A stretch of 47,005 nucleotides of DNA from Planctomycetota bacterium. GTDB taxonomy: Bacteria; Planctomycetota; SZUA-567. Positions 6,330 to 34,523 of the stretch are shown piece after piece. The notes under the pieces are model-generated. The model was not told where the DNA came from, did no database searches, and was given only the letters and a program-made list of their open reading frames with translations. The stretch lies in contig JAITQC010000170.1 of assembly GCA_031289115.1 (NCBI GenBank), positions 1 through 47,005 of the forward strand, written 5' to 3'. Made by a program: the position numbers and the translations under genes. How positions within the stretch are numbered: position 1 is the first letter of the stretch; each line of letters starts with the position of its first letter.

Positions 6330-7232
6330 CTAATCGTCCAGGGGCGGTAGACTTTCTATTCCGGGGAACCAGTCAAGGCTACGTATGGAAACATAGGGTA
6401 TGGTCCCGTCCTGCCGGCATTCCTGGTAAAGTTTTTCCACCTTATCCTGGTCGTTGATATAGGTGTAGTCAAGAGCGAGGATCGGCACCCCAGCCGCTTT
6501 AACCCGTTCCAGACGGGGAAGCAACCATTCCCGGTATTCCGGGTCGATGTCTCCGTAGGCGAAGCCGTCCGCATCTGTCTCCTCGTCCCCTTCCGGCGCT
6601 TTCCAGGTCGACCGCACCCCTTCGTACATCATGCCATCCAGGTAGGGGGCGGCCAGGGGCACCACTTCCAGGCCGTTGTTGGCGACAATGGTGGCGTCGG
6701 GATAGCGCTCCCGTAGCTTCCGAATCAAGTCGATGGTGGCCTGATCGGCCCCGGCGAAACGTTCCGGATCTTCCTCGATGAGAATTTCGCCGTTGTCGAC
6801 ATTATCGAGGAACAGCCCGTCGTAACCCTGGTCGAGGATGGACTGCGCCACCTGGAAGAGGAGGAGGTCCTGCCATTCAAGGCTACGGGAGTCTACCCGG
6901 TACGACTCCGGCCAGTCGGGGTTGGGGTCAAGGACCCAGCTCTGATCGGCGATGGCGGGGAAAAACCAGCGGCCGTTTTCGGCCTCGCCGATACTCATGT
7001 AACCGATACAGCGGCGGTTGCCCTTGTCCGCGGGGCGGATGCGGCCGATAGATTCCGATTCCAGGATCAAGAGGTCGTAGTCCTTGACACCTAGCACGCG
7101 GCGGTCTTCACCATAGTAACAGAGCCAGCGGGTGTTGTTGTTAATGTGTTTGGCAATTTCTTGCGCTCCCGCCACGCCGATTCCGGCTAAGAACAGTACT
7201 CCTAGTATTACCGCCAGTTTAACCATGCGCAT
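6330..7232 (-). CDS. Secreted GH114/GH166-type glycoside hydrolase, PelA hydrolase-like
   Basis: A 300-residue protein with a signal peptide (hydrophobic 4-21, likely cleavage after AGA at 21-23). The mature part is a TIM-barrel of the endo-alpha-1,4-polygalactosaminidase family: an early CYYG...YDLLILE strand, GYMSIGEAE, DGLFLDNVDN, and EGVRS near a probable catalytic Glu. This is the fold of the N-terminal hydrolase domain of PelA, which cleaves the galactosamine-rich Pel polymer in the periplasm. The PelA homologue in the pel locus at 14259 lacks this domain, so I infer this is the missing half, encoded separately. An AAGGAG site 5 bases before the ATG at 7232 supports the start. It is monocistronic and convergent with lptB. 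It could alternatively degrade another GalN-containing polymer. Confidence 0.78.
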   Translation of the reverse strand: MRMVKLAVILGVLFLAGIGVAGAQEIAKHINNNTRWLCYYGEDRRVLGVKDYDLLILESESIGRIRPADKGNRRCIGYMSIGEAENGRWFFPAIADQSWVLDPNPDWPESYRVDSRSLEWQDLLLFQVAQSILDQGYDGLFLDNVDNGEILIEEDPERFAGADQATIDLIRKLRERYPDATIVANNGLEVVPLAAPYLDGMMYEGVRSTWKAPEGDEETDADGFAYGDIDPEYREWLLPRLERVKAAGVPILALDYTYINDQDKVEKLYQECRQDGTIPYVSIRSLDWFPGIESLPPLDD

Positions 7233-7450
7233 GACATCTCCTTCGGAGTTTATCCGGCTTTCACCCGGTGGACCGGGAGTGGCCGGGGGAATGGTGATTC
7301 ACCCGTAGTTTAGGGACTAACCGCCGTCTCGGCGGGGTTGTGGTAATTTTAAGCGCCGGCGGCGGCGATACCCGCCAGCCTTGTTCTTTCCGGCTTTTCC
7401 GGTATTAATAACCCCGGAAAGGCGAAGACCGCCCATTTAGGAGGATTACC

Positions 7451-8854
7451 ATGGAAAAGAAATCCACTTTCGCGCTTTATTTCGGCAACCGGGGTTTTTT
7501 CCCCGCCAGCCTGCAACAGTCGGCCCGGGATGAATTGACCCGGGTCTTGGAGGGGCTGGGCCACGCGGTTATCGCCCTTCCGGCCGACGCCACCCGCAAT
7601 GGGGCGGTGGAAACCGCGGCCGAGGGGAGGAAATACGCCGCCTTCCTTGAGGAAAACCGGGGCAAATACGATGGGGTAATCCTGTCGCTACCCAATTTTG
7701 GCGATGAAAACGGGGCGATGGCAGCCTTCCGGGACTGCCGGGTTCCCATCTTGATACAGGCCTATCCGGACGAACTGGACAAGATGAGTCCAGAGCTACG
7801 TCGCGATTCCTTCTGTGGCAAGTTTTCCATAATGGACGTTTTCTGTCAATGCGGGATAAATTTCACCGCCCTAAAACCCCACACCGTGTCGCCGTCTTCG
7901 CCCGATTTCGCCGGAAACATCGATTATTTTGACCGTCTCTGCCGCGTGGTGGGGGGAACCCGGTGCCTGACCCTGGGGGCGATTGGCGCCCGGACCACCG
8001 CCTTCAAGACTGTCCGCTTTGACGAACTCGCCCTGCAGAAATACGGGATCACCACGGAGTGTTTTGACCTGTCCGAACTTTTCCAGCGAACCCGTTCCCT
8101 GGCGCCCGGGGAGGCGGCCGTGGCGGCCAAGCGCGATACCCTGGCCAACCTTGCCGACTGGACCGGTACTCCCGACCATGCTCTGGAAAACCTCTCTCGG
8201 CTGGGGGTCGCCCTGGACGCCATGATTGATGAATACCGGCTGGACTGTCTTGCCCTTCGCTGTTGGATGGAAATCCAGCAGGAGCTTGGCGTGTCGCCCT
8301 GCGTTCTTCTTTCTGAACTAAACCAGCGGGGAATTTCCGCCTCCTGCGAACTTGACGTTGGTAACGCCCTGGCCATGCACACCCTCGCCCTGGCCGCCGG
8401 GGGCCCGGCCACCTGCCTTGACTGGAACAACAACTACGCTGACGACCCTGATAAATGCATCCTTTTCCACTGTGGACCAGTTCCGCAGGAACTGATGCAG
8501 GGCAAGGGCAGGATAACTGACCACGCCATCCTCGCCACCAGTCTTGGCAAGGGACGCTCCTGCGGCTGCAACACCGGTCGGCTGCGTCCACAGGCGATGA
8601 CCTACGGCAGCCTACTTACCCGGGACGGGTCGCTGGTGGCCTTTATCGGGGAGGGTGAGATCACCCCCGATCCCATTCCTGACGATTTCTTCGGCTGCGC
8701 CGGGGTGGCGCATATCCCCGACCTCCAGGATGTCCTGCAGCAAATCGGTTATTGCGGTTTCCGCCACCACGTCAGCCTGGTCGCCGGGCAGGTCATGGCT
8801 CCCCTGGCCGAGGCGATGGAGAAATACCTGGGTTACGAAACCATGCTTTTCTAG
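7451..8854 (+). CDS. L-fucose/L-arabinose isomerase-like protein
   Basis: A 467-residue protein resembling the COG2407 sugar-isomerase family (the L-fucose isomerase C-terminal fold). It has an N-terminal Rossmann-like region (YDGVILSLPNFGDENG), a middle LALRCWMEIQ segment and a C-terminal part with CDWNNNY-like and GRITDHAI-type elements that normally hold the metal-binding and substrate residues. Members interconvert aldoses and ketoses in the cytoplasm; the substrate cannot be told from sequence. A strong AGGAGG site 7 bases before the ATG fixes the start. The gene is divergent from the PelA-hydrolase-like gene and convergent, 8 bases away, with the Ppx gene. No sugar transporter or kinase is adjacent, so the pathway is open. 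Confidence 0.8.
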   Translation: MEKKSTFALYFGNRGFFPASLQQSARDELTRVLEGLGHAVIALPADATRNGAVETAAEGRKYAAFLEENRGKYDGVILSLPNFGDENGAMAAFRDCRVPILIQAYPDELDKMSPELRRDSFCGKFSIMDVFCQCGINFTALKPHTVSPSSPDFAGNIDYFDRLCRVVGGTRCLTLGAIGARTTAFKTVRFDELALQKYGITTECFDLSELFQRTRSLAPGEAAVAAKRDTLANLADWTGTPDHALENLSRLGVALDAMIDEYRLDCLALRCWMEIQQELGVSPCVLLSELNQRGISASCELDVGNALAMHTLALAAGGPATCLDWNNNYADDPDKCILFHCGPVPQELMQGKGRITDHAILATSLGKGRSCGCNTGRLRPQAMTYGSLLTRDGSLVAFIGEGEITPDPIPDDFFGCAGVAHIPDLQDVLQQIGYCGFRHHVSLVAGQVMAPLAEAMEKYLGYETMLF

Positions 8855-8862
8855 AAATGGCT

Positions 8863-10524
8863 TCAGGTGGTGTCGCGGCGCACCACTACTTTCAGGCCGG
8901 TTACCATTTCCAGAAGGTTGCCTTTCTTTGGAATGGCGTCGGCGATTATCACCATATCTTCCCGGGTGTCCAGGTGGATTATGAGTTGTCCCCGGATCAG
9001 TTCCGGACGGATGTCGCGGACCGCCTGCCGGTGGGCCCGGTCAAGGCTGTCGGCGAGGCGTAGGATAGCGGCCAGCTTTTTTACCCGGGTGCGGTCGGGA
9101 GGCGGGAGGGCCATGAAGTCGCTGTGCCGGTCTGAAGGTATTTCCATACGGTGGAAGTAAGTAATCTGTGCCGCCAGGATGCGGTCGGCTTCGCTAAGGC
9201 CGACGATGTCGGCCCAGCGCACCAGGTAGGCGCTGTGGCGGTGGTGGGCGAGTTCGGAAATATGCATGCCGACATCGTGGAGAACCGCCGCCACCTCCAG
9301 AATCAGGCGGTCCCTCTCCTCCAGGTCGAGAAAACTGGTCAGAAAGTCGAAGAGGCGCAGGGAAAACTCGGTGACAATCCGGGCGTGGGCGCGATCGTAA
9401 TTGTATCTCTCCCCCACCGCCCGGGCCGAACGGACTATCTGGCGGTGGAAGGCTTTTAGCGGGGGGACCCCTCCCGCCTCTATGGCCATTTCCCGGAGTA
9501 GCCCCACCAGAAGCTCGCTGTTGGCGAAAGTGGCCTCCTTCACCCCGCAAGCCTCCAGGAAACAGTCCAGGATAAGCATGGCGGGCACCAGGAGCTCCAC
9601 GTCAGCCATACCGAGGTTGAATTGGCGGCTTATTTCAAGGTTGCCAAGAGCGCAAGCCCGTCCCAGGCGTTCGCGCAGGATATCGGCCGGGATGACGTAG
9701 TCGTGGGTGTTGCGGCGGGCCGCCGGGTCGTTCTGGAAGGTCCGGTAAAGGAGACGGTTGACTAGAAGTAGGCGGGCGGCGTTGTATTCCTGGTAGAGGT
9801 CGCGGGTGCTGTTGACAATGTTACTGGCGATTGCCCGGAGAAGCTCGGGGTTGGCTTGTCCGGAACTGCCGCCAACGGCGTGGAAAAGACGGGAGGTTCC
9901 TAGCCGCCGCGAGCCACCGCCCTGAAGGTCTTCTCCCCGTAGAAGCATTATCTCGGTGGAGCCGCCCCCGAGGTTAAGGGCGAGGGAGTAGGCGCCGGGG
10001 GTGTCGCGTAGCCAGGGGAGCAGGGCCTGGTAGACCAGGCGGCTTTCCTCAACCGCGTCCAGGACTTCCAGCTCGATATGGCAGGTGTGGCGGATACGGT
10101 CGACCAGAATGTCACTATTGGAAGCCTCGCAGATCGAGGCGGAGGTCGCGGCCCGTGTCTTTACCTTGCCGTAGCCGTCGAGGAGACGGGTGAAGTTCTC
10201 CATGCTGTGGCAGACCGAGTGGATGGTGCCGGGCAGGATGTAACCGTGCTGGAAGATGTCAGAACCGGTGGTGGCGGGACTGCTCAAATCCTCTATCACC
10301 CGCACCTCGTTGTCGGGGAGTAGCTCGGCCAGCTTCATCCGGATGGCGGTGGAGCCGATGTCGATGGCGGCGAGGAGAGGCCGGGCGCTCGAGGCCTTGA
10401 GCGCTAGGGCACTGGTTTTAGGCTGGGTCTCCGCGCTCTTTTTTTGCCTGGCCGGGGGTTTTTTCGCCACTGGCAAAGCGGTTTTTTCCCCGGGAGTTTT
10501 CCCGGCTTTTTTTTTGCCTCGCAT
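8863..10524 (-). CDS. Ppx/GppA-family exopolyphosphatase with C-terminal HD domain
   Basis: A 553-residue protein of the exopolyphosphatase / guanosine pentaphosphate phosphatase family, which removes terminal phosphates from polyphosphate or pppGpp. Visible parts: an N-terminal basic, Lys/Pro/Ala-rich extension (1-48), the actin-like ATPase fold with phosphate-binding DIGSTAIR (55-62) and LNLGGGSTE (183-191), and a C-terminal HD module with HD at 416-417 and a following HHRHS stretch. The basic extension is unusual for the family. A GGGGGAAGGC site precedes the ATG at 10524. The gene is last in the flavodiiron-GT2-ppx unit, 9 bases after the glycosyltransferase stop. Whether polyphosphate or pppGpp is the substrate is undecided. 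Confidence 0.9.
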   Translation of the reverse strand: MRGKKKAGKTPGEKTALPVAKKPPARQKKSAETQPKTSALALKASSARPLLAAIDIGSTAIRMKLAELLPDNEVRVIEDLSSPATTGSDIFQHGYILPGTIHSVCHSMENFTRLLDGYGKVKTRAATSASICEASNSDILVDRIRHTCHIELEVLDAVEESRLVYQALLPWLRDTPGAYSLALNLGGGSTEIMLLRGEDLQGGGSRRLGTSRLFHAVGGSSGQANPELLRAIASNIVNSTRDLYQEYNAARLLLVNRLLYRTFQNDPAARRNTHDYVIPADILRERLGRACALGNLEISRQFNLGMADVELLVPAMLILDCFLEACGVKEATFANSELLVGLLREMAIEAGGVPPLKAFHRQIVRSARAVGERYNYDRAHARIVTEFSLRLFDFLTSFLDLEERDRLILEVAAVLHDVGMHISELAHHRHSAYLVRWADIVGLSEADRILAAQITYFHRMEIPSDRHSDFMALPPPDRTRVKKLAAILRLADSLDRAHRQAVRDIRPELIRGQLIIHLDTREDMVIIADAIPKKGNLLEMVTGLKVVVRRDTT

Positions 10525-10533
10525 GCCTTCCCC

Positions 10534-11205
10534 CTAGCACTTTACTGGCCGGGTGCGCCATAACCGCCAGGCCATACGGAAAAAACGGATTGTGTCGACA
10601 ACTGGGCTAATAGAGCTTTTTTCGTCATTGTAGATGGTGCTGACCGGCACCGCGGTTATACGTAGTCCCTGACGCCCCATGGCGACAACCATCTCGCCCT
10701 CGAAATCGTAGTTCCGGGTGGTCAGGGTGACCGCCTTCCAGGCGGTCTGGCTAACCAGCCGAAAGCCGCACTGGGTGTCTGGGACCGCCACGCCAGCTAG
10801 GAGGCTAATCACCCGGCTGGTGAAGCGGTTGGTCATAAGACGCACCCAGGGCATTCCGGCGCTGTTAGCCATGCGGTTGCCGACCACCAGGTCGGCGGTT
10901 GGGGCAAGCTCCAGGAAACGGGGGATTTCTTCCGGGGCGTGCTGGCCGTCGGCGTCCAGGCAAACAACCGCTTCCGCCCCGGTGGCAAAGAGGTGGGTGA
11001 GTCCGCGGAAGAGCGAGGCGCCCTTGCCAAGGTTCATGGCGTTAAGCAGCACCTCGGCTCCGGCCTGGCGGGCCAGGGCGTTAGTGGCGTCGCGGGAACC
11101 ATCGTCAACCACCAGTACCCGAGGCAGGTACTGGCGGGTTCGTTCCACCACCTCGGCGATATGGCGCTCTTCCTGGTAAGCGGGAATCAGGGCAGCTATA
11201 TTCAT
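10534..11205 (-). CDS. Family 2 glycosyltransferase
   Basis: A 223-residue soluble GT-A glycosyltransferase of the dolichyl-phosphate-mannose synthase-like branch of GT2. It begins with IAALIPAYQE, then VLVVDDGSRD for nucleotide binding, NLGKGAS, and a DxD-type CLDADGQH for metal and nucleotide-sugar binding, then an AMGRQGLRI region near the end. No transmembrane tail is present, so it should act on the cytoplasmic face, probably on a lipid-phosphate or cell-surface acceptor. Its start codon overlaps the stop of the flavodiiron gene (ATGA), showing translational coupling. Acceptor and donor are unknown; the short length suggests a Dpm1-like core only. Confidence 0.9.
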   Translation of the reverse strand: MNIAALIPAYQEERHIAEVVERTRQYLPRVLVVDDGSRDATNALARQAGAEVLLNAMNLGKGASLFRGLTHLFATGAEAVVCLDADGQHAPEEIPRFLELAPTADLVVGNRMANSAGMPWVRLMTNRFTSRVISLLAGVAVPDTQCGFRLVSQTAWKAVTLTTRNYDFEGEMVVAMGRQGLRITAVPVSTIYNDEKSSISPVVDTIRFFRMAWRLWRTRPVKC

Positions 11206-12395
11206 GGATTAGTGGCGGCGAGGGCTTTTTCCGCCAACAGCCGCCCCGCTTTCCTACCCTCTTCCAATAGCGCCGGGGTGGGACGCCAGGGAAATTTCAA
11301 GGTGGGTTGGATTATGTTGTAACCGCCTTTTTTCAAGTATTCCTCCACCTGGTCAGGCCCACCCTTGGCGGCCCAGCCGTAGGAACCAAAGGCGAAACCA
11401 GCTTTGTTGGTGAGGCGCATGCCTTGGATATAGGTGAGGGTGGCCGCCATGGCTGGCATAAGCAGGTTGTTAATGGTGGACGAGCCGGCGGCGAAGGCGG
11501 CGGCGTCGAGGAATTGCGTGGCGATCTGTGTCAGGTGGGTGCGCCGGACATGGATAAGCGAGACAAAGAGTCCGGGCTGGTCAGCCCCGTCAACGATCGC
11601 CTCCGCCATACGGGTGGTGCTTTCCCACATTGAATCGTAAAAAACCACTATCCTCGGTTTGACCTGGTTAGCGGCCCAGCCTTGATAGGCCTTGATGATG
11701 GCGGCGGGGTTTTTCCGCCAGACCAGGCCGTGCGAGGGGGCGATCATCTTGATTTTAAGCCCGCCCGCCAGCCCCAGGGCTTTCTTGACAGAGTTGGCGT
11801 GCGGCGCGACAATATTGGCGTAGTAGATCTTGGCCTCTTCCATCACCACCGCTAGGTCGACCTCGTCGTCAAAACGCTCGGCGGTGGCGAAATGCTGGCC
11901 AAAGGCGTCCATGGAAAAGAGCAGCTCGTCTTCCGGGACATAGGTGAAGGTCGAGTCTGGCCAGTGGACCATGGGAGTCTCGATAAAACTAAGCGTCCGC
12001 GAACCCAGGCTTACCTGGTCGCCGGTCTTGATCGTCTTCCAGTTCCAATCCGCCCCCCCCAGATAGGAGATGATGGTGTCGCGGCATTTCTGGCTAGCCA
12101 GGATCTGGGCGTTAGGAAAGGCGCGCACCGCTTGTTCCAGGCCGGAGGAATGGTCGGGCTCGGCGTGGTTGCAGACAATGTATTTGATGGAATCCGCTTT
12201 AGCTAGACGAGTAACGTTGTCGTACCAGCGTTCGAAGAAAAGGTGCTTCACCGGATCAATGATGGCGTTTTCCCGGTCACGGATGAGGTAGGAGTTGTAG
12301 GTGGCGCCGCGCCCGGTCATATAGGAATGGAAGTCTCGTATACTCCAGTCAACAGCTCCCACCCAGTCAATGCCGGGAAAAAGTTCGGTGCGCAT
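11202..12395 (-). CDS. Flavodiiron protein (A-type flavoprotein, O2/NO reductase)
   Basis: A protein of about 397 residues with an N-terminal metallo-beta-lactamase-like diiron domain and a C-terminal flavodoxin domain. Diiron ligands are visible in HAEPDH (H77, E79, D81, H82), in the SMDAFG Asp, in MVHWPD and in SHGLVWRK. The flavodoxin part has an FYDSMWESTTRMA phosphate-binding loop for FMN. These proteins reduce O2 to water or NO to N2O in the cytoplasm of anaerobes and microaerophiles, fed by rubredoxin or a similar carrier. A longer in-frame TTG start at 12413 exists, but the GGAGG there serves as the ribosome site for the ATG at 12395 and homologues begin at that point. No rubredoxin gene is adjacent. 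First gene of a three-gene unit. Confidence 0.93.
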   Translation of the reverse strand: MRTELFPGIDWVGAVDWSIRDFHSYMTGRGATYNSYLIRDRENAIIDPVKHLFFERWYDNVTRLAKADSIKYIVCNHAEPDHSSGLEQAVRAFPNAQILASQKCRDTIISYLGGADWNWKTIKTGDQVSLGSRTLSFIETPMVHWPDSTFTYVPEDELLFSMDAFGQHFATAERFDDEVDLAVVMEEAKIYYANIVAPHANSVKKALGLAGGLKIKMIAPSHGLVWRKNPAAIIKAYQGWAANQVKPRIVVFYDSMWESTTRMAEAIVDGADQPGLFVSLIHVRRTHLTQIATQFLDAAAFAAGSSTINNLLMPAMAATLTYIQGMRLTNKAGFAFGSYGWAAKGGPDQVEEYLKKGGYNIIQPTLKFPWRPTPALLEEGRKAGRLLAEKALAATNP

Positions 12396-12518
12396 AGTGA
12401 AAGGATCCTCCAAAAGTGGTCAATATAATTATAGGTAAACTACGGCGCAAAAGATAAGATTCGGTCCGGCCGGGAGTTGGCGGATGGGATTCAGGAACGC
12501 CCTTCAACCTCTATTGTC

Positions 12519-12545
12519 ATTATAACCGCAATTGTTGTTTGGCAA
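12519..12545 (-). promoter_or_regulatory. Candidate promoter and dyad upstream of flavodiiron gene
   Basis: On the minus strand a perfect TATAAT (12519-12524) lies 15 bases after TTGCCA (12540-12545). The -35 element overlaps a small dyad, TTGTT-TGGC-AACAA, which could be a regulator site. The spacing is short of the ideal 17, so this is tentative. The leader to the ATG would be about 115 bases. Confidence 0.4.
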
Positions 12546-12761
12546 CAAAAAAACCTGACTACTTTCCGAGGCGGCCAAATTGGAGGGAAAAACTTCCGGG
12601 AACCCCTGCCTCCTCCCTGGCGTTTTCCTATTTTCAAGAAAGTTAAGCTATGGAACCAGCCGATATTATAACTAGAGTACTGTTTGGCGAGGTGTCCTAT
12701 AACGTTCCCTCCGGGAAAGGTCCGGCGCAACCTATTTGCAACCTCAAGCGGGTTTTTTTTC

Positions 12762-12833
12762 TTGACACTTGGGGCGAGATATTGTGAAATAGGTCGTAAT
12801 GCTTGACGTTAATAGCGCCAAGCAAGCTATATC
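12762..12833 (+). promoter_or_regulatory. Candidate promoter(s) for secreted repeat protein
   Basis: A perfect TTGACA (12762-12767) is followed after 17 bases by TGAAAT (12785-12790). A second TTGACG (12803-12808) is followed after 19 bases by TATATC (12828-12833). Either could drive the gene at 12919; the consensus -35 and the T-rich stretch before it fit a strong promoter. Confidence 0.45.
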
Positions 12834-12918
12834 TTATATTGGGGAGAAGGAATAACGTCCGATAATTTTACTATAACACACCGAGTCTTGTTAATCTGGC
12901 TTTACGAAGGAGGAGAAA

Positions 12919-13851
12919 ATGCGTAAGACTGTTTCCGCGATTATCATGGCACTGTCATTTTTCGGGGCGGTGGCTATGGCTGCAACTCCGGGTGATGAAG
13001 TTCCATTTAGAGAAGGCGAGCCCATGCCGCCCGCCCCCACTGGGCTGTCATGGTGCTTGATTCAGAAACCGGCGGTATACGACAACGTGACCGAGACGGT
13101 TACCGTGCGTCCGGCTGCCAACTTCCAAGTTCCGGTTCCTGGTGAGTATGCGACTCGTTCCGAAACCGTCCCCTGCATTCCCGCCTACCGGGTTGGTAAA
13201 GTGACCCCGGCCCAATTCGGGACTGAAGCGGTTCAGTATGTCTGCCAGGACGAATACACCGTTCTTGAGGTGATTCCCCCGCAGTTCGCCGACGTTCCCC
13301 AGGAAGTTGAGGTTTGCCCGGCCTACGAGCAGATCACCATCGTTCCTGCCCAGTTCCGTGATGTTCCCAAGCGTCTCCTGGTCGAGCCCGCCCGTAAGGC
13401 TTTCCAGCAGATTGCCTGCGATGACGCCAACCTTTGCTGGACCGTCTGCGAGACCCCGGCCAAGTACCGTGACGTTATCACCAAGGAACTCGTGGCTGAC
13501 GCCAAAGAACAGCGTACTCCGGTTCCGGCCAAAAAGCAGCAAATTCTGGTGCGTAAAGTTGTAAAACCGGCCCAGGTCCGCGAAGTCAAGGTTCCGGCCA
13601 AGCAAGCCACCTATCAAAAGAGCGTGGTGTCGGCCGCCGCCCGGGTTGAATGGCAGAATGTTCCCGCCCAGACCCAGAACGTTCCGGTAGTGGTGGAAAC
13701 CAAGACCCCGAGCTTCACCAACCAGGCGATTCCTGAGAAGAAGGAAACCATCACCCGCCGGGTTCTCAAGGCTCCCGCCACCATGGTTTGGCGTCTGCAG
13801 TCGGTCAGCGCCTACGCGCCAGCCGCGAATACCCGCTACAACCTGAAATAA
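12919..13851 (+). CDS. Secreted protein built of PAxF/Y-V degenerate repeats
   Basis: A 310-residue protein with a clear signal peptide (cleavage likely after AMA at residues 19-21). The mature chain is almost entirely degenerate repeats of about 20 residues. Each has a Pro-Ala-x-aromatic or PA(K/Q) element followed by an alternating Val-rich strand (for example PAQFRDVPKRLLVEPA), and the last is PATMVWRLQSV. Similar repeats occur in OmpA-type envelope proteins, where they form extended beta structure, but no OmpA or peptidoglycan-binding domain is present here. Several Cys residues are spaced along the repeats. Expression signals are strong: AAGGAGGAG before the ATG, a consensus-like promoter and a perfect terminator, so it is probably an abundant periplasmic or surface protein. 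Function unknown. Confidence 0.85.
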   Translation: MRKTVSAIIMALSFFGAVAMAATPGDEVPFREGEPMPPAPTGLSWCLIQKPAVYDNVTETVTVRPAANFQVPVPGEYATRSETVPCIPAYRVGKVTPAQFGTEAVQYVCQDEYTVLEVIPPQFADVPQEVEVCPAYEQITIVPAQFRDVPKRLLVEPARKAFQQIACDDANLCWTVCETPAKYRDVITKELVADAKEQRTPVPAKKQQILVRKVVKPAQVREVKVPAKQATYQKSVVSAAARVEWQNVPAQTQNVPVVVETKTPSFTNQAIPEKKETITRRVLKAPATMVWRLQSVSAYAPAANTRYNLK

Positions 13852-13910
13852 GCCTAAAGGTCACTCTGGTTTCGGCCTTGGGTTGGAGTTTTAAGCAGTC
13901 TAAAGAAGAA

Positions 13911-13945: not shown

Positions 13946-14258
13946 ACACCAGAACAAGGTATACTGCCAGTAGGTTTAAGCTTTGGCCAAGGCTCAGGCG
14001 AACCCGGAGCCCCGAGGTTTTCCGCCTGCCTCGCCTAGGGTGCCTCGGGGTTTTACCAGGTCGCCAATTACTCGGGGGCGAGGCGCCGAAGGGGAAAGCT
14101 ATTTTGCGGCGGCTTTTATTCTAGCGGTAAAAAATGAATGAAAAAGGGTTTTTCCGGAAAATGAAATATGCGGTTCCTGTTTTTCGGAACCAGGCGGGCG
14201 CTTGTCCGGGACGCCGGCCACCGGTTTAACTGTCTGACCGTAAAGTCAGGAGATGCCA
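13946..14258. other. Leader region of the pel locus
   Basis: About 310 bases with no gene. It contains GC-rich inverted repeats (a GCCCCGAGG...CCTCGGGG pair near 14011-14055) and a hairpin GGTTCC/GGAACC at 14172-14191. I compared it by eye with the c-di-GMP-I and -II riboswitch landmarks and see no match. It presumably holds the pelA promoter, which I cannot place with confidence. Confidence 0.5.
14234..14252 (+). promoter_or_regulatory. Hairpin overlapping the pelA ribosome-binding site
   Basis: CTGAC (14234-14238) pairs with GTCAG (14245-14249), and the last two bases of the stem are the first two of the AGGAG site (14248-14252). This small hairpin could tune pelA translation. The AGGAG position favours the ATG at 14259 (6-base spacing) over the ATG at 14253 (no spacing). 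Confidence 0.4.
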
Positions 14259-16442: not shown

Positions 16443-16462
16443 GAATCAAGGGGGTTTGATCC

Positions 16463-23974: not shown

Positions 23975-24032
23975 GTTAGAGCCACCTGTTTAGCGGTTTA
24001 GCGGGATGGTTTAAGTATTGAAAGGGCTGGCG

Positions 24033-25025: not shown

Positions 25026-25100
25026 GAAAAATAGCCGGCGTTTGGTTGACTCCGACCGGGTAAATATAGACAATTGAACCAGCTACCGCCAGGGAACGCT

Positions 25101-25141
25101 ACCCGCCTGGCCGCCAGTATTTTGCTGGTGGCCAGGCGGGT
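25101..25141 (+). other. Long intercistronic hairpin between pelC and receiver-like gene
   Basis: ACCCGCCTGGCC (25101-25112) pairs perfectly with GGCCAGGCGGGT (25130-25141). The stem continues through one G-T pair into CCAG/CTGG, 17 pairs in all with a 7-base loop. There is no T-run, so it is a candidate mRNA-processing, stability or attenuation element. Confidence 0.6.
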
Positions 25142-25169
25142 GGCTTGGTTGTGTTGGGGGCTTTCGTCC

Positions 25170-25529: not shown

Positions 25530-25549
25530 ACCGGACTGGACAAGGAACT

Positions 25550-26920: not shown

Positions 26921-27972
26921 AAAACTTTTATTTCGCCATCCTCGCCCTGATTGGTTCGATAGCCAGCGTCTACCTGATGTTTGACCACCAATTACTAATG
27001 GCCCTCGGGGTGCATAGCCTGGCGGCTTTGTTGGGGGGTATAGCTGGCATCAACTCCGACAACCGCCGCTCGGGACGGCACTGGTATCCTCCCTCCCTCG
27101 CTTTTTGCCTGCCTATCATTGGTCCTTTCTTCGCCTATCTTCTTTCCGAATCGGTTAAGTGGAAGCGGACCGGCAGTCTTTCCGAGGAGTTCGCTCTTTA
27201 CCTGAACGATGCTGCCAGCATCAAGGAAAGTGTAAAGCAAAGCGATATCGAGGCGCCGCCGACAGAAGAACTGGTCTCCATGGCCGACATCATCTCCAAC
27301 CCGCTTAACGATGTGGAACAGCGGGTGGCGGTGGAAAATCTTTCCAGCATGGAAACGCCTTCGGCCATGGCGGTCCTGCGTAAAGTTATCGATTCCGGCA
27401 CCGGGGGCGAGGGCCGTTTTTTCGCCATGACCGCTATGGCCAGACTCGAAGAGCGGATTTTCTCCTCGATACAGCGCCTGGAGGAGTCCATCGCCGTTGG
27501 GCGCCAGTCGGGCCCAGACGTCTGTCTGGAGACGGCCAAGAACTACCTGGATTTTTCCTATTACCAGCTGGCCAAGGATGCCCGCCGCGACGAGTACCTG
27601 GAGAAGGCAAGAGAGTGGCTGGGCCGTTGTATGCAGGAAAACGCCTTCGATCCCGAAGCCTGGATAATGCTAGGACGAATCGAACTCCAACAGAACAACC
27701 CCCAGAAGGCCCTGGACTGTTTCAACACTTTTTTGCGTCTGATCCCCCGGAGTCGCAAAGGGCTTTTGTGGCGGGCGGAAGCCTGGTATATGCTGGGTAA
27801 TTACGATCAGGTCCGGCGCGACTGCCTGTCGGTTTTGGAGCTTGGCTGTCTGGTGGACAATTTTCACGAGACCATCATGTTCTGGGCGGAAAACTCGATG
27901 TCACCCTGGGTCGCCGAGGAGCGCGACCATGGCTACCGCCCCGGTTACACCGTTGTCAGGCAGATGGCTTAG
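26917..27972 (+). CDS. pelE: PelE, inner-membrane TPR protein
   Basis: A 351-residue protein (Pseudomonas PelE about 330) with N-terminal membrane segments (about 3-22, 28-46 and 64-83) and a cytoplasmic helical domain. The latter has a HEAT-like stretch (about 115-190) and TPRs (about 205-320, for example PEAWIMLGRIELQQNNPQKAL). In the known complex PelE binds PelD and PelF/PelG at the inner membrane and helps start polymerisation. The start codon overlaps the pelD stop by four bases, so translation is coupled. The order pelD-pelE is conserved; what follows is not, since a HEAT gene separates it from pelF. Confidence 0.9.
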   Translation: MKNFYFAILALIGSIASVYLMFDHQLLMALGVHSLAALLGGIAGINSDNRRSGRHWYPPSLAFCLPIIGPFFAYLLSESVKWKRTGSLSEEFALYLNDAASIKESVKQSDIEAPPTEELVSMADIISNPLNDVEQRVAVENLSSMETPSAMAVLRKVIDSGTGGEGRFFAMTAMARLEERIFSSIQRLEESIAVGRQSGPDVCLETAKNYLDFSYYQLAKDARRDEYLEKAREWLGRCMQENAFDPEAWIMLGRIELQQNNPQKALDCFNTFLRLIPRSRKGLLWRAEAWYMLGNYDQVRRDCLSVLELGCLVDNFHETIMFWAENSMSPWVAEERDHGYRPGYTVVRQMA

Positions 27973-28060
27973 GGCTAATTTCCTGAGCCACGCCGGTATC
28001 TGGCAATGAGGGTTTTACAGGTTGCGGCGGCCCAAGGCGCCGCCGTGGGAAAGGTTTTTC

Positions 28061-30931
28061 ATGCGGGGACTGTTTGTCGATCTGGCCCGGGATCTCCGGG
28101 ATACGGTCAGGGCCAAGCGCCAGGGTCGTATTCGCGAAATAGAACTCGCCTGGAGCGATAATGAACTCGACAATTTCCGCGTTTTCGCCCGTGGTCTCCA
28201 GCCCGCTGAGATGGCCGATATCTGTTACGCCCTTTCCGACTCCACCGCCCTGCCTCTAATGGAGTTGTTGGCTGATTACGCCGAGATGCACGATGACCTC
28301 CGCAAAATCGCCTTCCAGTCCCTGGCTAAAACCCCGGTTTCGGCAAAGATCTATATTTCGACCCGCCTTATGGCGTCCACCAACCCGGAGGTGCGGGTCG
28401 GGGCTTGCGAAATGCTTTCCAGCATTGGCGTCTCGGGAATCGAGCGTCTAACAGTGGCTTTAAGCGATCCTGACGCCACGGTGGTGGCGGCCGCCATGCG
28501 GGGAGTGGTGAAGATTGGTGGAAAAAAGGCGGCGGCAACCATAGCCGCCATGATTGCCACTGGCTCTCCTGACATCAAGGCCCAGGCCCTTAACGCCATG
28601 ATTAGTCTTGGCATTTCCGGTCCGGTCTTCGAGACGCAGGCGTTGGGGGTCTTTCAGGACAGCAAGGCCACTACGGACCTCCGTAAAACTGCCGCCCGCG
28701 CCCTGGCCGCCGGCGCCAGCCGGCCCGGGCGAGACGTTTTTATGAAAGTCGCCATCAGCGAGGGCGACCTGGAAATACGCCGCGCTGCCGCCGAAGCCCT
28801 GGGGAGTTACCACGACCCCGAAGTAGTCCGCACCTTGCTTGACCTGGCCACCCAGGATATCCAGCCCCTGGTGGTGACGGCGAGCCAAGCCATGTCTCAC
28901 ATCAAGACCGAGGTGCGTCTCGACGTTTTGCCGCGCCGCCTGGCTGACAAGCAAGAGAGGTTGGCGGTGGCGGCGGCGGAATTCCTGGGGGAAATGCCCC
29001 AGACCGCGGCGGGCGAGGCGCTGGCCCGGTTTTTGCAGGAGGAAACCCGGCCGGTGGTGGTAGCCGCCATAGCCGACAGTCTGGGCCGGAGTGTATATCC
29101 CCTGGCGTGGAAGGCTATCCGGGAGAAGCTACAGGATTCCCGTAATGACCCTCTGCCGCTCCTAAGCGCTCTGGCTGACGCCACCCCGGCCGAAAAGATT
29201 GACGATTTGGCTAGCCTGGTGGGAACTTTCGCCGGTGTCCGGGAAAACTCTTTTCTTCTCTTCCGCCTGGCCGCTTTCGCCCGGGCTGGGAAAACCAGCC
29301 ACCTGGCCGAGGACAAGGCGTTGGCTGTCATCAATTCCGGTGACAACCAGTTGGTCCCCCCCGCCATCGAGATACTCGCTCTTTCTGACCGGGAGCAATT
29401 ACGCACCCAAGTTCTTCCCGACATAGCCCGCCATATCACAAAGCTTCCCATCCGGAGAATTATCAAGTCCCTCCTAAAAATAAGCGACGGTGAACTCGCT
29501 CCCCTGTTTAGCAAAGTCGGTAAGGAAACTTCGCCTCTATTACCGGTGGCGGCGGCGGAGGGCGAGGTGCTGGGTCCGGGCGGCGATGTTTTTCTCTCCA
29601 AGGTTGCCTCTTGGGTCAGGGCGGATAGCCCAGGCGCCCGCCAGGGTCTTAAGCTGGCGGCGATACTTGATCCATCGCAATTGCGACTCGCCATGAATAT
29701 ATCTCCGGACAAAGCCATACTTCTGGAAACCTGGGCTGAAATGGACGACAAGGACCGGGTGCAGAATATTCCCGAGTGGGGATCGATATTTGACAACTGC
29801 TCCGATGCGGACAAATTGACGATCATGAAGGTTATCCGCAAGACCAAGGAGGTACGCCCGCTGCGGTCAGTGGCGATGCTGGCTTTTCTCGAACCCGATG
29901 GGCCGGTGCGTGACATGGCGGTGAAACTCACTTCCGAAATACTCGCCATCGGTCTTAAGGCGCCCGACAGTATGCGGGCTTTGCCGGTTTTGCCGCCAGC
30001 GCCACCCACCTTCGCCCCGGATTCACCGCCACCGGCTGCCCAAAAAGTCGCCCAACCTACCGGAGTTGCCGGGCCAGCTTCCGCCGCTGGTGCTACTCCC
30101 CCTCGGGTGGCGACTCAACCCGCCCGGGCGGGTTCACCGCCAGCGGCGGTGGCGCCGGGGCGTCCAGTGGCGGCGGTTTCTCCATCTCCAAGACCAAGCG
30201 CTCCTCTTCCCTCGGCTCCGGGCCAGTCACCTCCCGGTCAGGCAGTTTACCCCCAGGTGGCGCCCCAGCCTGCCCGGGCGTTTTCACCGCCAGCGGCGGT
30301 GGCGCCTGGGCGTCCAGTGGCGGCGTCTCAACCTCCAAGACCAAGCGCTCCTCTTCCTCCGGCTCCGGGCCAGCCGCATCCTGGTCAGGTTGTTTCCCCC
30401 CGGGTGGCGACCCAACCCCCCCGGGCGGGTTCACCGCCAGCGGCAGTGGCGCCTGGGCGTCCAGCGGCGGCGGTTTCTCCCTCTCCTGTACCAAGAGCTC
30501 CTCTTCCCCCGGCCCCGGGCCAGCCACCTCCCGGCCAGGTTGTTTCCCCCCGGGTAGCGACTCAACCTGCCCGGGCGGTTTCACCGCCAGCGGCGGTGGC
30601 GCCTGGGCGTCCAGTGGCGGCGGTTTCTCCTCGGGCGGCGGTTTCTCCCTCTCCCGGACCAAGGGCTCCCCTTCCCCCAGCCCCGGGTCAAGCGCTTCCG
30701 GGCCACGGCGTTTCACCGCGGATGGCTTCATCCGCTCCAGCCCACCCCGGGAGTGGCGTTCCGCTCGCCCCAGTAAGCCAGCCGGGAAGAACTGTCTCCG
30801 CCCCGGCCAAAGCCGGAGTTATTGTCCAGGCCCGCAGAGGCGTTGAACCAGCGGTGGCCGGTGTTGGCCAGGTGTTTAAGGACGGGACGGTTGCTTCGGA
30901 GCCGGCCGGTCCAGTGAAGGCAAAGACATGA
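28061..30931 (+). CDS. Large HEAT-repeat protein with Pro-rich tandem-repeat tail
   Basis: A 956-residue protein with no signal peptide or membrane segment. Residues 1 to about 650 are alpha-helical HEAT-like repeats (for example VRVGACEMLSSIGVSGIERL and IRRAAAEALGSYHDPEVVRTL), a scaffold for protein contacts. Residues about 655-940 are Pro/Ala-rich, with four tandem units of about 50 residues. The GGGAAAGG site 6 bases before the ATG at 28061 fixes the start; a TTG at 28022 is less likely. The stop overlaps the pelF start (ATGA), so the gene is translationally coupled to pelF and probably belongs to the cytoplasmic Pel complex. It is not part of any pel operon I know. Function is inferred from position only. 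Confidence 0.87.
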   Translation: MRGLFVDLARDLRDTVRAKRQGRIREIELAWSDNELDNFRVFARGLQPAEMADICYALSDSTALPLMELLADYAEMHDDLRKIAFQSLAKTPVSAKIYISTRLMASTNPEVRVGACEMLSSIGVSGIERLTVALSDPDATVVAAAMRGVVKIGGKKAAATIAAMIATGSPDIKAQALNAMISLGISGPVFETQALGVFQDSKATTDLRKTAARALAAGASRPGRDVFMKVAISEGDLEIRRAAAEALGSYHDPEVVRTLLDLATQDIQPLVVTASQAMSHIKTEVRLDVLPRRLADKQERLAVAAAEFLGEMPQTAAGEALARFLQEETRPVVVAAIADSLGRSVYPLAWKAIREKLQDSRNDPLPLLSALADATPAEKIDDLASLVGTFAGVRENSFLLFRLAAFARAGKTSHLAEDKALAVINSGDNQLVPPAIEILALSDREQLRTQVLPDIARHITKLPIRRIIKSLLKISDGELAPLFSKVGKETSPLLPVAAAEGEVLGPGGDVFLSKVASWVRADSPGARQGLKLAAILDPSQLRLAMNISPDKAILLETWAEMDDKDRVQNIPEWGSIFDNCSDADKLTIMKVIRKTKEVRPLRSVAMLAFLEPDGPVRDMAVKLTSEILAIGLKAPDSMRALPVLPPAPPTFAPDSPPPAAQKVAQPTGVAGPASAAGATPPRVATQPARAGSPPAAVAPGRPVAAVSPSPRPSAPLPSAPGQSPPGQAVYPQVAPQPARAFSPPAAVAPGRPVAASQPPRPSAPLPPAPGQPHPGQVVSPRVATQPPRAGSPPAAVAPGRPAAAVSPSPVPRAPLPPAPGQPPPGQVVSPRVATQPARAVSPPAAVAPGRPVAAVSPRAAVSPSPGPRAPLPPAPGQALPGHGVSPRMASSAPAHPGSGVPLAPVSQPGRTVSAPAKAGVIVQARRGVEPAVAGVGQVFKDGTVASEPAGPVKAKT
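30101..30715 (+). repeat. In-frame tandem repeat in HEAT protein gene
   Basis: Four head-to-tail units begin at 30101, 30251, 30398 and 30548, with lengths of 150, 147, 150 and 168 bases. Each encodes P-R/Q-V-A-x-Q-P-x-R-A, then SPPAAVAPGRP and APLPPAPGQ elements. The last unit has a six-residue insertion. DNA identity is high, so the array may vary in copy number. Confidence 0.88.
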
Positions 30932-32478
30932 TTGCTGATGTCTGCATACTCACCGAGGGTACCTATCCTTACGTCATGGGTGGCGTGTCCACCTGGATTG
31001 CCCAACTTTTTGACTCTATGCCACAAATCACTTTCAGCGTTCTCCATATCGGCGCCAGCCGCAACACTCCCCGCCAGGTGCGTTACAAGCTGCCGCAAAA
31101 CCTGGTGGATGTGTCGGATGTTTTCCTTTTCGACTATCCCGCTCCCCGCCTTGGTCATGAGGTGATGGAGGAGCATGCGCTTTCCCCGGATGAACGTAAA
31201 CGGCTACTACGGTTTTATCTGGACCTCACCACTGGCAAACCCAGTAACGCCATGAGCATAGCCAGCATAGTCAGCCGCTTTCGTAACGGCCAGGAGTTTA
31301 TCGAGGCCATGGCGCACAGCGCCTCGGCCTGGGAGGTTGTCACCGACCTTTACAAGGAGGTGGCACCTAACGGCCTCTCTTTCCTTGATTTCTACTGGAC
31401 AGTGCGGGCGCTGTTCCTTCCGGTTCTAAATCTCCTGCGTTTTCCCATTCCCAAAGCCCGGGTGTATCATTGCGCCTGCACTGGTTACGCCGGCCTTCTA
31501 GGCGCCCGGGCGGCCCAGGAGACTGGGCGGCCCTTTATCCTTAGCGAGCACGGCATCTACTCGCGGGAGCGCCGCATCGAGTTGTCCCGGGTGGAGTGGC
31601 TGTCCAATTCCGGGGCCTCCAAGTTCAACCAACTCGACCGGTCCCGCAACTGGTTCCGCGAATGGTGGATTCAGCTTTTCCAGTCACTCGCTCGCTCCTC
31701 CTATGTCGAGGCGGCGAAAATTATCTCCCTCTACCAGGGTAACAAAGATGCCCAGGTAGTGGAGGGCGCGGTGGGAGACCGGATCGATCTTATCCCCAAC
31801 GGGATAGTTATCGAACGCTTCAAGGACATTCCCCGCGAGCCCCGTAAGCCAGGTTCGCCCCTGCGTATCGGCTTTGTTGGCCGGGTCACCAGCATCAAGG
31901 ACATCAAGACTCTGCTTAAGTCCATGGCTATTCTGGCGAGCCACAACGTGCCGTTTGAAACCAAGATAGTCGGTCCCATGGACGAGGAGCCGGAATACAC
32001 GGAAGAATGCCTGGCCTTGACCCAGCAACTTGACCTTAGCGACCGGGTGGTTTTCACCGGCCCCAACCGGGATCTAAAAACCGTCTACTCCTGGTTTGAT
32101 GTCACCCTTTTGACCAGCGTCAGCGAGGGTTTCCCCTTTGTGATTATCGAAGCCAACTGTGCCGGGATTCCGGTGGTCACCACCGATGTCGGCGCCTGCA
32201 AGGAAATAGTGGCGGGGATGGGCCGTGAGGACCTGAAGCTTGGGCCTAGCGGCCTGGTGACCGCGGTGGGTGCCCCGGATCAGACAGCAGCCGCCCTGGA
32301 GAAATTCGCCCTTGATCCGGATTTGAACTACCAGTATGGCATGGCCGGACGCGAGCGGGCGCTTCGTTTCTACGACCTTCGGAAAATCATGGCGGAATAC
32401 CAGGATCTTTACGAGACCTATATTTACGCTGCTAATGGCAGTTATGGCCCCAACCGGCTTTCCTATAGTAGTAGTTGA
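30928..32478 (+). CDS. pelF: PelF, cytosolic GT4 glycosyltransferase (Pel polymerase)
   Basis: A 516-residue GT-B glycosyltransferase of family GT4 (Pseudomonas PelF: 507). The N-terminal domain starts IADVCILTEGTYPYVMGGVSTW with the GGVSTW acceptor loop (18-23); the C-terminal domain has RIGFVGRVTSIKDI and the GT4 EX7E motif (E400, E408 in SEGFPFVIIEA). PelF is thought to polymerise UDP-GalNAc into the Pel chain on the cytoplasmic face. Its start overlaps the stop of the HEAT gene, and pelG follows after 50 bases. The conserved SEHGIYSRERRIE stretch is typical of PelF rather than general GT4 enzymes. Confidence 0.95.
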   Translation: MIADVCILTEGTYPYVMGGVSTWIAQLFDSMPQITFSVLHIGASRNTPRQVRYKLPQNLVDVSDVFLFDYPAPRLGHEVMEEHALSPDERKRLLRFYLDLTTGKPSNAMSIASIVSRFRNGQEFIEAMAHSASAWEVVTDLYKEVAPNGLSFLDFYWTVRALFLPVLNLLRFPIPKARVYHCACTGYAGLLGARAAQETGRPFILSEHGIYSRERRIELSRVEWLSNSGASKFNQLDRSRNWFREWWIQLFQSLARSSYVEAAKIISLYQGNKDAQVVEGAVGDRIDLIPNGIVIERFKDIPREPRKPGSPLRIGFVGRVTSIKDIKTLLKSMAILASHNVPFETKIVGPMDEEPEYTEECLALTQQLDLSDRVVFTGPNRDLKTVYSWFDVTLLTSVSEGFPFVIIEANCAGIPVVTTDVGACKEIVAGMGREDLKLGPSGLVTAVGAPDQTAAALEKFALDPDLNYQYGMAGRERALRFYDLRKIMAEYQDLYETYIYAANGSYGPNRLSYSSS

Positions 32479-32528
32479 GGCGGGCATGACGGTGGTTTTA
32501 CCAACACCGAAAAGCGAAGGGATGGGAA

Positions 32529-33914
32529 ATGGCGGGTATTGGTTTTCGCTTGCAGAAGCTGCTTAACTCCGGCAGTTATCAGGGGCTTCTTCTCGGCTAT
32601 GCCTATTCCGCCATTATTTCCTCCGGGCCCTGGATGCTCGCCATGTTTGGTATCGCCGCCATCGGCGTAGTGGCCCGGATGGATATCGGGGGTGGGGTTG
32701 ATAAACAGGGGGGCGATCTTTTCCGGGCGGTAGTGACCTATGTCTATGCGGGTTCCCTTCTTTTCGGAGGGTTCTCCCACCTGGGTATTTCCCGCTATAT
32801 TTCCGACCGACTCTACTCTGGCCAAATGGAGAGGGTTCTTCCCTGCTTCATGCGCACGGCCGCCGCCACCCTGATCGTTGGTCTGATTGTCTCCGCCCTG
32901 TGGTTCTATCCCTCCGGCCTTTCCATAGTCCAGGCGACGGCTGGCATCGCCCTCTACCAGGGCCTGTCCCTGGTGTGGTTGTGCATGGTGTTTCTTTCCG
33001 CCGCCAAAGGTTACGACACCATAGCCTGGGGCTTTTTCCTGTGCAATGTCCTCGGCTTCGTGCTCGCCTTGTTTGGCAACCGGTTTTTTGGCCTGGACGG
33101 ACTTATGTGGGGCTACGCCACCGGGCAAATGGCGCTGGGAGGCTGGCTCAGTTTACGCATATACCGTGAATTTCCTTCCTACGCTCCCGAGGAGGGGGAG
33201 GTGTTTCCTTTTCTCTGGGGAAAACGCGCCCTTATCGGAGTGGGTTTTCTTTTCAATTTCGGGGTGTGGGTGGACAAGTTTGTTATCTGGTACAGCCCGA
33301 TTGGCAAACAGCTGTCTGGCTGGTTCCACTGCTCTGACATCTACGACACCTGCCTCTATGTATCTTACCTCACCGTGCTTCCGGCCATGACCATGTTTCT
33401 CATCCGGATCGAGACCTCCTTCTATAAAAACTACAGCATCTATTTCAACGCCGTGACCTGCGGCGGTGATTATGAGGCGATAAAACTGGGGAAGAAGAAG
33501 ATAGGGGAAAGCCTGGAGCTTTCCGCCGCCCGCATTGTCAAATTTCAGGGGGGGCTTAGTCTTTCCCTGATTCTAGCCGCGCCGCTACTGGCGCCGTACA
33601 TTGGCATCCCCCCTGACGCTGTACCGCTACTGCGTTTCGGTTTCCTGGCCGCGCTCGCCCAGGCGATGCTCCAGTTTCTCCTGATTTTTTTCCTCTATTT
33701 TGACTGGCAGACCAAGGCTTTGAAGCTGGCGATTTTTTTTGTTGCCACCAACGCCATTTTTACCGTCCTGACTATCATTTTTGCCAGGGACTGGTTGGGA
33801 CTGGGCTATTTGGCCGCCTGCGTCAGTTCTCTGGTTTTCGGGGTCTTTATGTTTAACCGCGGTATGGTGCTTCTGGAGTTCGAGACCTTCGCTAAACAGG
33901 TGGGGGAGAACTGA
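32529..33914 (+). CDS. pelG: PelG, polytopic inner-membrane Pel transporter
   Basis: A 461-residue integral membrane protein (Pseudomonas PelG: 456) with about twelve hydrophobic segments and the start motif MAGIGFRLQKLL. Other PelG-like stretches are ISSGPWML, ISRYISDRLY, and FFLYFDWQ near the end. It belongs to the polysaccharide-transporter/flippase-like superfamily and is thought to move the Pel chain across the inner membrane with PelD and PelE. AAGGGATGGGAA just before the ATG supports the start. pelG closes the conserved D-E-F-G block; a small secreted protein follows. Confidence 0.95.
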   Translation: MAGIGFRLQKLLNSGSYQGLLLGYAYSAIISSGPWMLAMFGIAAIGVVARMDIGGGVDKQGGDLFRAVVTYVYAGSLLFGGFSHLGISRYISDRLYSGQMERVLPCFMRTAAATLIVGLIVSALWFYPSGLSIVQATAGIALYQGLSLVWLCMVFLSAAKGYDTIAWGFFLCNVLGFVLALFGNRFFGLDGLMWGYATGQMALGGWLSLRIYREFPSYAPEEGEVFPFLWGKRALIGVGFLFNFGVWVDKFVIWYSPIGKQLSGWFHCSDIYDTCLYVSYLTVLPAMTMFLIRIETSFYKNYSIYFNAVTCGGDYEAIKLGKKKIGESLELSAARIVKFQGGLSLSLILAAPLLAPYIGIPPDAVPLLRFGFLAALAQAMLQFLLIFFLYFDWQTKALKLAIFFVATNAIFTVLTIIFARDWLGLGYLAACVSSLVFGVFMFNRGMVLLEFETFAKQVGEN

Positions 33915-33998
33915 ACCCCCGCGGGGCTGGCGACTAGTCTTAGGCGGGCGGCCTTTCTAGGGCACGGGACCGTACTGGCTGGGAAAGGGTGGACGGTA

Positions 33999-34523
33999 AT
34001 GGCAAAAGTTGTTTGCGTGCTGGCAGGGCTACTGTTTTTCTCCTTCGTGGCGTCAACTGTCGCTGTAGAGGTGAGCGAGGCGGCGGCAAAAATACCGGTG
34101 CGCCTGCGGGTGGCGGAGAGCGGGGAGTGGGCGCTTTACAGTATGACAGGAGGGGCGGAGCAGCGGCAGACTATAACCCAGGTGCGGGAAAAGGACGGGG
34201 ACCGCCTGTTCACCGTGTTGTTCGAACTGGTGATCAACGGGGAAACAGTGCAAAGCCGGGAAGAGGAGTGGTCGCTCCGGAACGCCATAAGGGATCAGGA
34301 GGAGTTGCCGGCCGACACGCGGATCGTGGGTATAGAAAGCGGGCAGGAAAAATTTGGCGGGCGGGAGTTGTCCACGGTTACGGTTGACATGATGATGTTT
34401 GATGACACCATTCACACGGTTTTCTCCGAGACTATACCGGTGACCGGGGTGTTGCGGGTGGAGGTTAACGGCGGGGAGATTCTTAACTTGGTGGACTTTG
34501 GCGGGTCTATCGCCGCCCCCTGA
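33999..34523 (+). CDS. Small secreted protein downstream of pelG, unknown
   Basis: A 174-residue protein with a signal peptide (hydrophobic about 5-20, cleavage near VAVE). The mature part looks beta-rich, with alternating strands such as GDRLFTVLFELVINGE and TVTVDMMMFDD, and ends in a GGEILNLVDFGG strand; a lipocalin- or immunoglobulin-like sandwich is possible. I recognise no family. It lies 84 bases after pelG on the same strand and converges with the FHA-kinase gene 20 bases on. It may be an extra periplasmic Pel component, but nothing beyond position shows this. Confidence 0.7.
   Translation: MAKVVCVLAGLLFFSFVASTVAVEVSEAAAKIPVRLRVAESGEWALYSMTGGAEQRQTITQVREKDGDRLFTVLFELVINGETVQSREEEWSLRNAIRDQEELPADTRIVGIESGQEKFGGRELSTVTVDMMMFDDTIHTVFSETIPVTGVLRVEVNGGEILNLVDFGGSIAAP

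Follow-up and report, generated by a model that had tools for sequence, protein, structure and literature searches.

Can a locus in which PelA and PelB are each encoded as two proteins, and in which further genes lie among the pel genes, still specify a complete Pel exopolysaccharide machine? This question is raised by a 47,005-nucleotide stretch of Planctomycetota DNA (the window), which is contig C106 of a 2.4-Mb metagenome-assembled genome (MAG) of 82.7% completeness. All seven Pel functions are present in the window, as a preliminary description of the same DNA had proposed; PelF, PelG, PelC, PelD and both halves of PelA are recognised by sequence, PelE by its domains and place, and the pore by its predicted structure. 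By every testable feature except the single-chain form of PelA and PelB, this is a Pel system. A Pel machine with split PelA and split PelB is very probable, and the reading as a whole, a complete Pel machine of a Planctomycetota type with the working proposed below, is given a probability of about 0.8. Homologies, catalytic and cyclic di-GMP (c-di-GMP) site residues, predicted folds and a conserved gene order are established here. Related loci were retrieved with a PelG alignment as query, while search by a single PelG sequence gave none. PelG scored above the cut-off in 28 of 392 Planctomycetota genomes, and 28 loci from 27 of these were examined. The relatives named below are Planctomycetota MAGs, of which G007 (contig QKCJ01000011.1), G011 and G012 belong to the family of the window, where PelG was found in 4 of 16 genomes. 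Sample names suggest that G011 and G012 may derive from termite guts.

The synthase and export components are the most direct to assign. PelF and PelG are identified with certainty by their sequence matches (Table 1). PelC matches PDB entries 9h80_C (E=1.9e-10) and 5t11/5t10 (2e-10), and this match together with the lipobox marks it as an outer-membrane lipoprotein. The PelD family profile matches the Pseudomonas aeruginosa PelD structure 4euv at 2.6e-22. Membrane helices, a GAF domain and a degenerate GGDEF domain are predicted in PelD, and the putative c-di-GMP I-site RxxD aligns as RSSD in the window. PelE is a membrane protein with tetratricopeptide repeats (TPR) which adjoins pelD. As separate observations on these components, PelC was not detected and PelD is longer in a large Planctomycetota clade (G041, G055, G069, G124, G139, G154, G189 and G207 loci), where export may differ, and PelF reads as two adjacent frames in two genomes, at L060 (G189) 12187-13692 and L102 (B435) 10713-12206, through a frameshift, an assembly error or a real split.

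PelA is divided into a deacetylase and a hydrolase, as had been described. The deacetylase product possesses no hydrolase domain and matches PDB 9cgy, the PelA of Pseudomonas thermotolerans, at E=4.3e-44; its stretches 175-324 and 363-626 align to residues 380-518 and 533-809 of that protein. It retains H283, D285, D287, H383, H387 and H531, the active-site residues of P. aeruginosa PelA being H526, D528, D530, H600, H604 and H761 (PMC12022489), with equivalence read from conserved motifs. The stand-alone hydrolase has 5tcb as its best PDB match (E=6.9e-20) and keeps the catalytic D143 and E204, which are invariant in the hydrolase alignment and are the likely counterparts of D160 and E218. 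Judged against the residues named in PMC12022489, the active sites of both the CE21 deacetylase and the hydrolase are in place. The hydrolase is the only GH114 protein found in the genome.

Distribution of the two halves was followed at loci where both are visible. They are split in 12 and fused in 2 Planctomycetota loci, split in 9 and fused in none in Bdellovibrionota (the phylum of a Bdellovibrionales MAG), and fused in 4 of 4 loci in the phylum of a Syntrophaceae MAG. At the sampled loci of Planctomycetota and Bdellovibrionota, hydrolase and deacetylase are usually encoded by separate genes. Split PelA has been reported in Gram-positives (PMC7112168), and the preliminary description had noted it as known from their Pel loci; its frequency in the two phyla means that it is not a Gram-positive peculiarity. 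Full-length PelA has been presented as conserved across Gram-negative phyla, from searches in which homologues had to exceed 85% coverage (PMC12022489). Despite its displacement, the hydrolase goes with PelG from genome to genome. GH114 proteins occur in 23 of the 28 PelG-bearing Planctomycetota genomes and in 25 of about 365 others (p=2e-19), and in the family of the window in all four PelG-bearing genomes and none of the 12 others (p=5.5e-4), shared ancestry being ignored in both tests. As two diderm phyla mostly encode the hydrolase and the deacetylase separately, an independent role of the hydrolase becomes testable in diderms. Two tandem PelA deacetylase genes were also seen in two Planctomycetota pel loci, L050 (G154) 2490-6892 and L052 (G069) 2940-7135.

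PelB is likewise represented by two proteins, a TPR scaffold and a separate pore. The AlphaFold2 model of the pore shows a signal helix, helices at residues 70-89 and 94-113 and sixteen strands. Its identity came from structure comparison alone, as PDB sequences yielded nothing useful when searched with the single barrel sequence or with a profile. Foldseek against the PDB placed PelB of the PelBC complex (9h80_M) first, with E=1.9e-12 and TM-scores of 0.58/0.64, followed by BcsC at ranks 2-4 and by the polysaccharide secretin 4y25, which we take to be PgaA, at rank 7. A profile built from split barrels only, of three genomes, matches residues 774-1039 of a fused TPR-barrel protein from another Planctomycetota pel locus (E=1.2e-9), and profile-profile comparison of split barrels with fused PelB C-termini gave probabilities of 97-99%. 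With structure prediction and profile searches, the pore and the deacetylase are thus assigned to Pel and not to unrelated systems. No second PelA deacetylase, PelA hydrolase or PelB pore, and no single-chain PelA or PelB, was found elsewhere in the 82.7%-complete genome.

PelB fission recurs in other Planctomycetota. In G007 and G056 a TPR gene likewise separates pelAda from the barrel gene, which it overlaps by 4 bp; in G032 and G063 the barrel gene stands directly before pelC with no TPR gene beside it; in G206 and G181 the TPR and barrel proteins are fused. A sequencing artefact was considered as the source of the splits and rejected, since intervening genes or 4-bp overlaps part the halves in several lineages. 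Two-chain PelA and PelB are taken as a variant trait and not a defining one, as many relatives share the separate genes. Both cuts should tolerate separation because they fall at domain borders: in P. aeruginosa PelA, the hydrolase domain on its own shows no binding to PelB, and the modelled contact involves the remainder of the protein (PMC12022489, PMC12141448). In P. aeruginosa, PelC is not recovered with the bare barrel, and its co-purification requires the stalk helix and TPR as well (PMC12141448); for this reason the two helices of the split barrel may matter. As TPR protein and pore occur here naturally as separate chains, such loci lend themselves to the study of how the polymer passes from scaffold to channel.

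The arrangement had been considered unlike the Pseudomonas operon, which did not hold. Between 14253 and 33914 the order is A(deacetylase)-B(TPR)-[pyrF-Sel1-STAS]-B(barrel)-C-[REC]-D-E-[HEAT]-F-G, which is collinear with A-B-C-D-E-F-G of Pseudomonas with one exception: the hydrolase gene stands about 7 kb upstream on the opposite strand. All genes of this run lie on a single strand with gaps of 6-144 bp, except 333 bp before the barrel gene; pelD/pelE and HEAT/pelF overlap by 4 bp, and the core pel reading frames are all intact. A promoter scan gave no more sites than shuffled sequence. The same order was looked for in related genomes and found. G007 and G056 carry pelAda-TPR-barrel-pelC-pelD-pelE-HEAT-pelF-pelG, with a receiver gene after pelC in G007 and without the pyrF/Sel1/STAS insertion, while the close relatives G011 and G012 retain HEAT-pelF-pelG. 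The arrangement is not due to chance, because relatives so distant that their PelG shares just 38% identity with the window protein have the same order. In a tree of PelF and PelG the window groups with G011 and G012 (support 100), and these group with G007 and G056 (support 100). As a combination this is a variant found across the lineage and not a one-off.

Comparison with known systems places the locus more exactly. It shares with P. aeruginosa pelABCDEFG the seven functions, their order, the catalytic, c-di-GMP-site and lipobox residues and the PelB-type 16-strand pore; it differs in the two-protein PelA and PelB, the displaced hydrolase, the added HEAT and receiver genes and the inserted pyrF, Sel1 and STAS genes. 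Like the Gram-positive pelDEADAFG of Bacillus cereus, it has separate deacetylase and hydrolase genes, with the hydrolase outside the main run. It does not belong to that type, for PelC and both parts of PelB are present and pelAda precedes pelD, standing at the start of the run beside the PelB genes, whereas in B. cereus it lies between pelE and pelF. Bdellovibrionota loci share the separate PelA halves and the HEAT gene between pelE and pelF, but they mostly have one PelB-sized protein of 917-964 amino acids with no split barrel seen, the hydrolase usually follows pelG directly, and pyrF, Sel1 and STAS genes are lacking. Fissioned pelB loci with gain and rearrangement, including rearranged PelA, were reported in 2020 from aquatic thermophilic species of other lineages (Bundalovic-Torma 2020, Fig. 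5iii, PMC7112194), and the available part of that text describes neither a split PelA nor a HEAT gene. The combination of separate PelA halves with a detached pore in a diderm, which had been put forward as new, is present, while its novelty is reduced by this report of PelB fission and by the usual occurrence of split PelA in the sampled phyla.

Of the new elements in the locus, the HEAT gene between pelE and pelF is the most interesting, and it was also the least expected part. The AlphaFold2 model of its product (mean predicted local distance difference test, pLDDT, 91.9) is an all-helical solenoid of about 40 helices, and with no signal and no consistent membrane helix the protein is predicted to be cytosolic. 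The window copy carries a repetitive C-terminal tail of 319 amino acids (26% Pro, 21% Ala) which the examined copies of relatives do not have. Foldseek with this model returned only generic HEAT proteins at low TM-scores and no specific relative. A gene for a HEAT protein of about 650 amino acids lies between pelE and pelF in G000, G007, G032, G051, G056 and G063. In G011 and G012, where the contig breaks off ahead of pelE, it immediately precedes pelF, and in G109 and G126 it is joined to the PelE end as one fusion protein, so that 10 of the 28 Planctomycetota loci possess it, as do all 14 Bdellovibrionota loci examined. The HEAT_2 domain is found in 17 of 17 aligned members. HEAT-bearing loci do not form one clade in the PelF and PelG tree, of which the backbone is poorly resolved.

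According to PMC13254593, PelE is predicted to act as a hub for protein-protein interactions in the PelDEFG complex, and since the HEAT protein is fused to PelE in some loci, a scaffold on the cytosolic side is suggested. It is likely that the HEAT protein is a genuine Pel subunit, and it probably scaffolds the PelD/E/F/G synthase; that it scaffolds PelE and PelF in particular is favoured by a small degree. The chances lie slightly above even for the broader proposal, in which Bdellovibrionota and a sizeable share of Planctomycetota build their Pel synthase with HEAT as an eighth, so far unrecognised, subunit, split PelA (in some lineages also split PelB) is the usual form in these phyla, and a stand-alone receiver by PelD gives some lineages a second input beside c-di-GMP. 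No description of a HEAT gene in pel loci was found in the literature searched, many subscription papers lying outside this search. The constant position of this HEAT partner suggests that one component of the synthase complex has so far been overlooked.

A receiver gene also occupies the slot between pelC and pelD in G007 (L013), G032 (L017) and G063 (L063), and in these the phospho-acceptor Asp is present. In the window receiver, encoded at 25170-25529, this Asp is replaced by Pro. The PelD I-site motif is absent from the alignment in G032 and G063, while the window retains the I-site and has a dead receiver. These loci, only four in number, give a mere hint that the two inputs, receiver and c-di-GMP, are interchangeable. 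The inverted repeat upstream of the receiver and pelD genes is possibly an attenuator which splits the transcript.

For the polymer, its assembly, the role of the HEAT protein and regulation, we infer the following working. Pel, a sticky biofilm sugar, is a partially deacetylated alpha-1,4-GalNAc polymer. PelF would polymerise N-acetylgalactosamine when turned on by c-di-GMP bound at the RxxD site of PelD, and PelG would carry the chain over the inner membrane, with PelE and the HEAT solenoid, as an added scaffold, keeping PelD, PelF and PelG together. In the periplasm the chain would follow the separate TPR protein, where the stand-alone deacetylase may dock and strip acetyl groups. Exit would be through the separate 16-strand pore ringed by PelC, and the two helices ahead of strand 1 could nucleate this ring. 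The TPR protein and the pore would then have to meet without a covalent link. The secreted hydrolase may work apart, trimming or releasing Pel; in Bacillus cereus PelAH tunes the amount of biofilm (PMC7112168).

Several points weigh against this interpretation. The organism is uncultured, and its Pel system is known from genomic sequence. The barrel model has a mean pLDDT of 66, and its N-terminal helices are weakly predicted. Where its gene lies and the kind of repeat are what link the TPR protein to PelB; profile-based TPR homology was rejected as evidence since TPR, PelE and HEAT profiles cross-match. HEAT proteins of the window and of Bdellovibrionota are just 11-15% identical and their repeats also cross-match, so that shared position and length carry most weight. 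Absence of the HEAT gene from 18 of the 28 Planctomycetota loci means that it is not universally needed. A locus that is gradually falling out of use could also explain the dead receiver and the three insertions.

Among other explanations, a related synthase-dependent system which uses Pel-type parts for a different polymer survives best, but it is unlikely. PelC, PelD, PelE and the pore have diverged far from the Pseudomonas proteins, and the 2020 survey warns that strongly diverged loci may yield exopolysaccharide of other composition (PMC7112194); PelF, the deacetylase and the hydrolase nevertheless retain family identity and active-site residues. The pores of BcsC (cellulose) and PgaA (poly-N-acetylglucosamine) are also 16-strand exopolysaccharide barrels with TPR ahead, but they rank behind PelB in the structure search, and the neighbours in the window are Pel genes. 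Less likely again is that the HEAT and receiver genes only travel along with the pel genes and contribute nothing to Pel. Generic scaffolding is what HEAT proteins are known for and most Planctomycetota loci lack the gene, yet it keeps the same slot in two phyla, is fused to PelE in two genomes and overlaps pelF in the window. Both genes, listed as extra in the preliminary description, are conserved in place among relatives and are not incidental. A decaying or silenced Pel locus, which the receiver without phospho-acceptor, the displaced hydrolase, the insertions and the presence of PelG in so few genomes of the family would mark, is very unlikely. No core frame is broken, the catalytic residues and the I-site are preserved, neighbouring genes remain closely spaced or overlap by 4 bp, and HEAT-pelF-pelG persists in close relatives.

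Table 1. Features of the Pel locus and its neighbourhood in the window.
Feature	Position	Strand	Basis
PelA hydrolase (PelAh, GH114/GH166-like), stand-alone, secreted	6330-7232	-	PDB 5tcb/5tsy/9cgy; PF03537 2.4e-14
Secreted protein with repeated Val/Pro-rich motifs, just upstream of pel run	12919-13851		no Pfam match
PelA deacetylase part (PelAda, CE21-type: mixed alpha/beta domain and deacetylase)	14253-16442	+	PDB 9cgy
Putative PelB periplasmic TPR scaffold, separate, 1170 amino acids, N-terminal signal/anchor	16463-19975	+	TPR families to 4e-35; hydrophobic N-terminus
pyrF-like orotidine monophosphate (OMP) decarboxylase, inserted, not part of Pel	19982-20977	+	PF00215 1.2e-16
Sel1-repeat protein, inserted	21040-21507	+	PF08238 2.4e-30
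STAS-domain protein, inserted	21636-22370	+	PF01740 9.3e-7
PelB outer-membrane beta-barrel, separate (likely ATG 22704)	22638-23942	+	AlphaFold2; Foldseek; split-barrel profile
PelC lipoprotein (likely ATG 24033), Pro/Ala-rich C-terminal tail	24018-25025	+	PDB 9h80_C; lipobox LSAGC
Degenerate receiver (likely ATG 25170), phospho-acceptor Asp to Pro	25074-25529	+	same slot as receivers of relatives
Inverted repeat, 20-bp stem, upstream of receiver/pelD genes	25098-25144	+	terminator-like scan; single copy in genome
PelD, predicted c-di-GMP receptor (likely ATG 25550): membrane helices, GAF, degenerate GGDEF	25433-26920	+	family profile; RSSD
PelE: N-terminal membrane helices and TPR	26917-27972	+	TPR families; place after pelD conserved in relatives
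HEAT-repeat solenoid (likely ATG 28061), likely extra Pel component	28022-30931	+	HEAT_2 2.8e-21; AlphaFold2
PelF GT4 glycosyltransferase	30928-32478	+	NF038011 E=1.2e-126
PelG membrane exporter	32529-33914	+	PF16933 5.4e-113; only copy found in genome
Small secreted protein at end of run	33999-34523	+	signal-like N-terminus

The extra and interrupting genes were all found at the places described earlier, and only pyrF, Sel1 and STAS look like local insertions. The pyrF-like gene starts 6 bp after the TPR gene. None of the three has a homologue inside the pel loci of the examined relatives, and the Sel1 and STAS genes show no sign of a Pel role. The pyrF-like gene was considered as the sole OMP decarboxylase of the genome and rejected, a better-scoring OMPdecase-family gene being present on contig C196 at 28363-28971. 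The small secreted protein at the end of the run has no Pfam match, no homologue in the loci of relatives and nothing linking it to Pel; the secreted protein just upstream of the run also has no homologue there. Four unrelated genes, for an isomerase, Ppx/GppA, a GT2 protein and a flavodiiron protein, occupy 7451-12413. Two separate pel loci (L022-L023 and L024-L025) were observed in one genome, G055.

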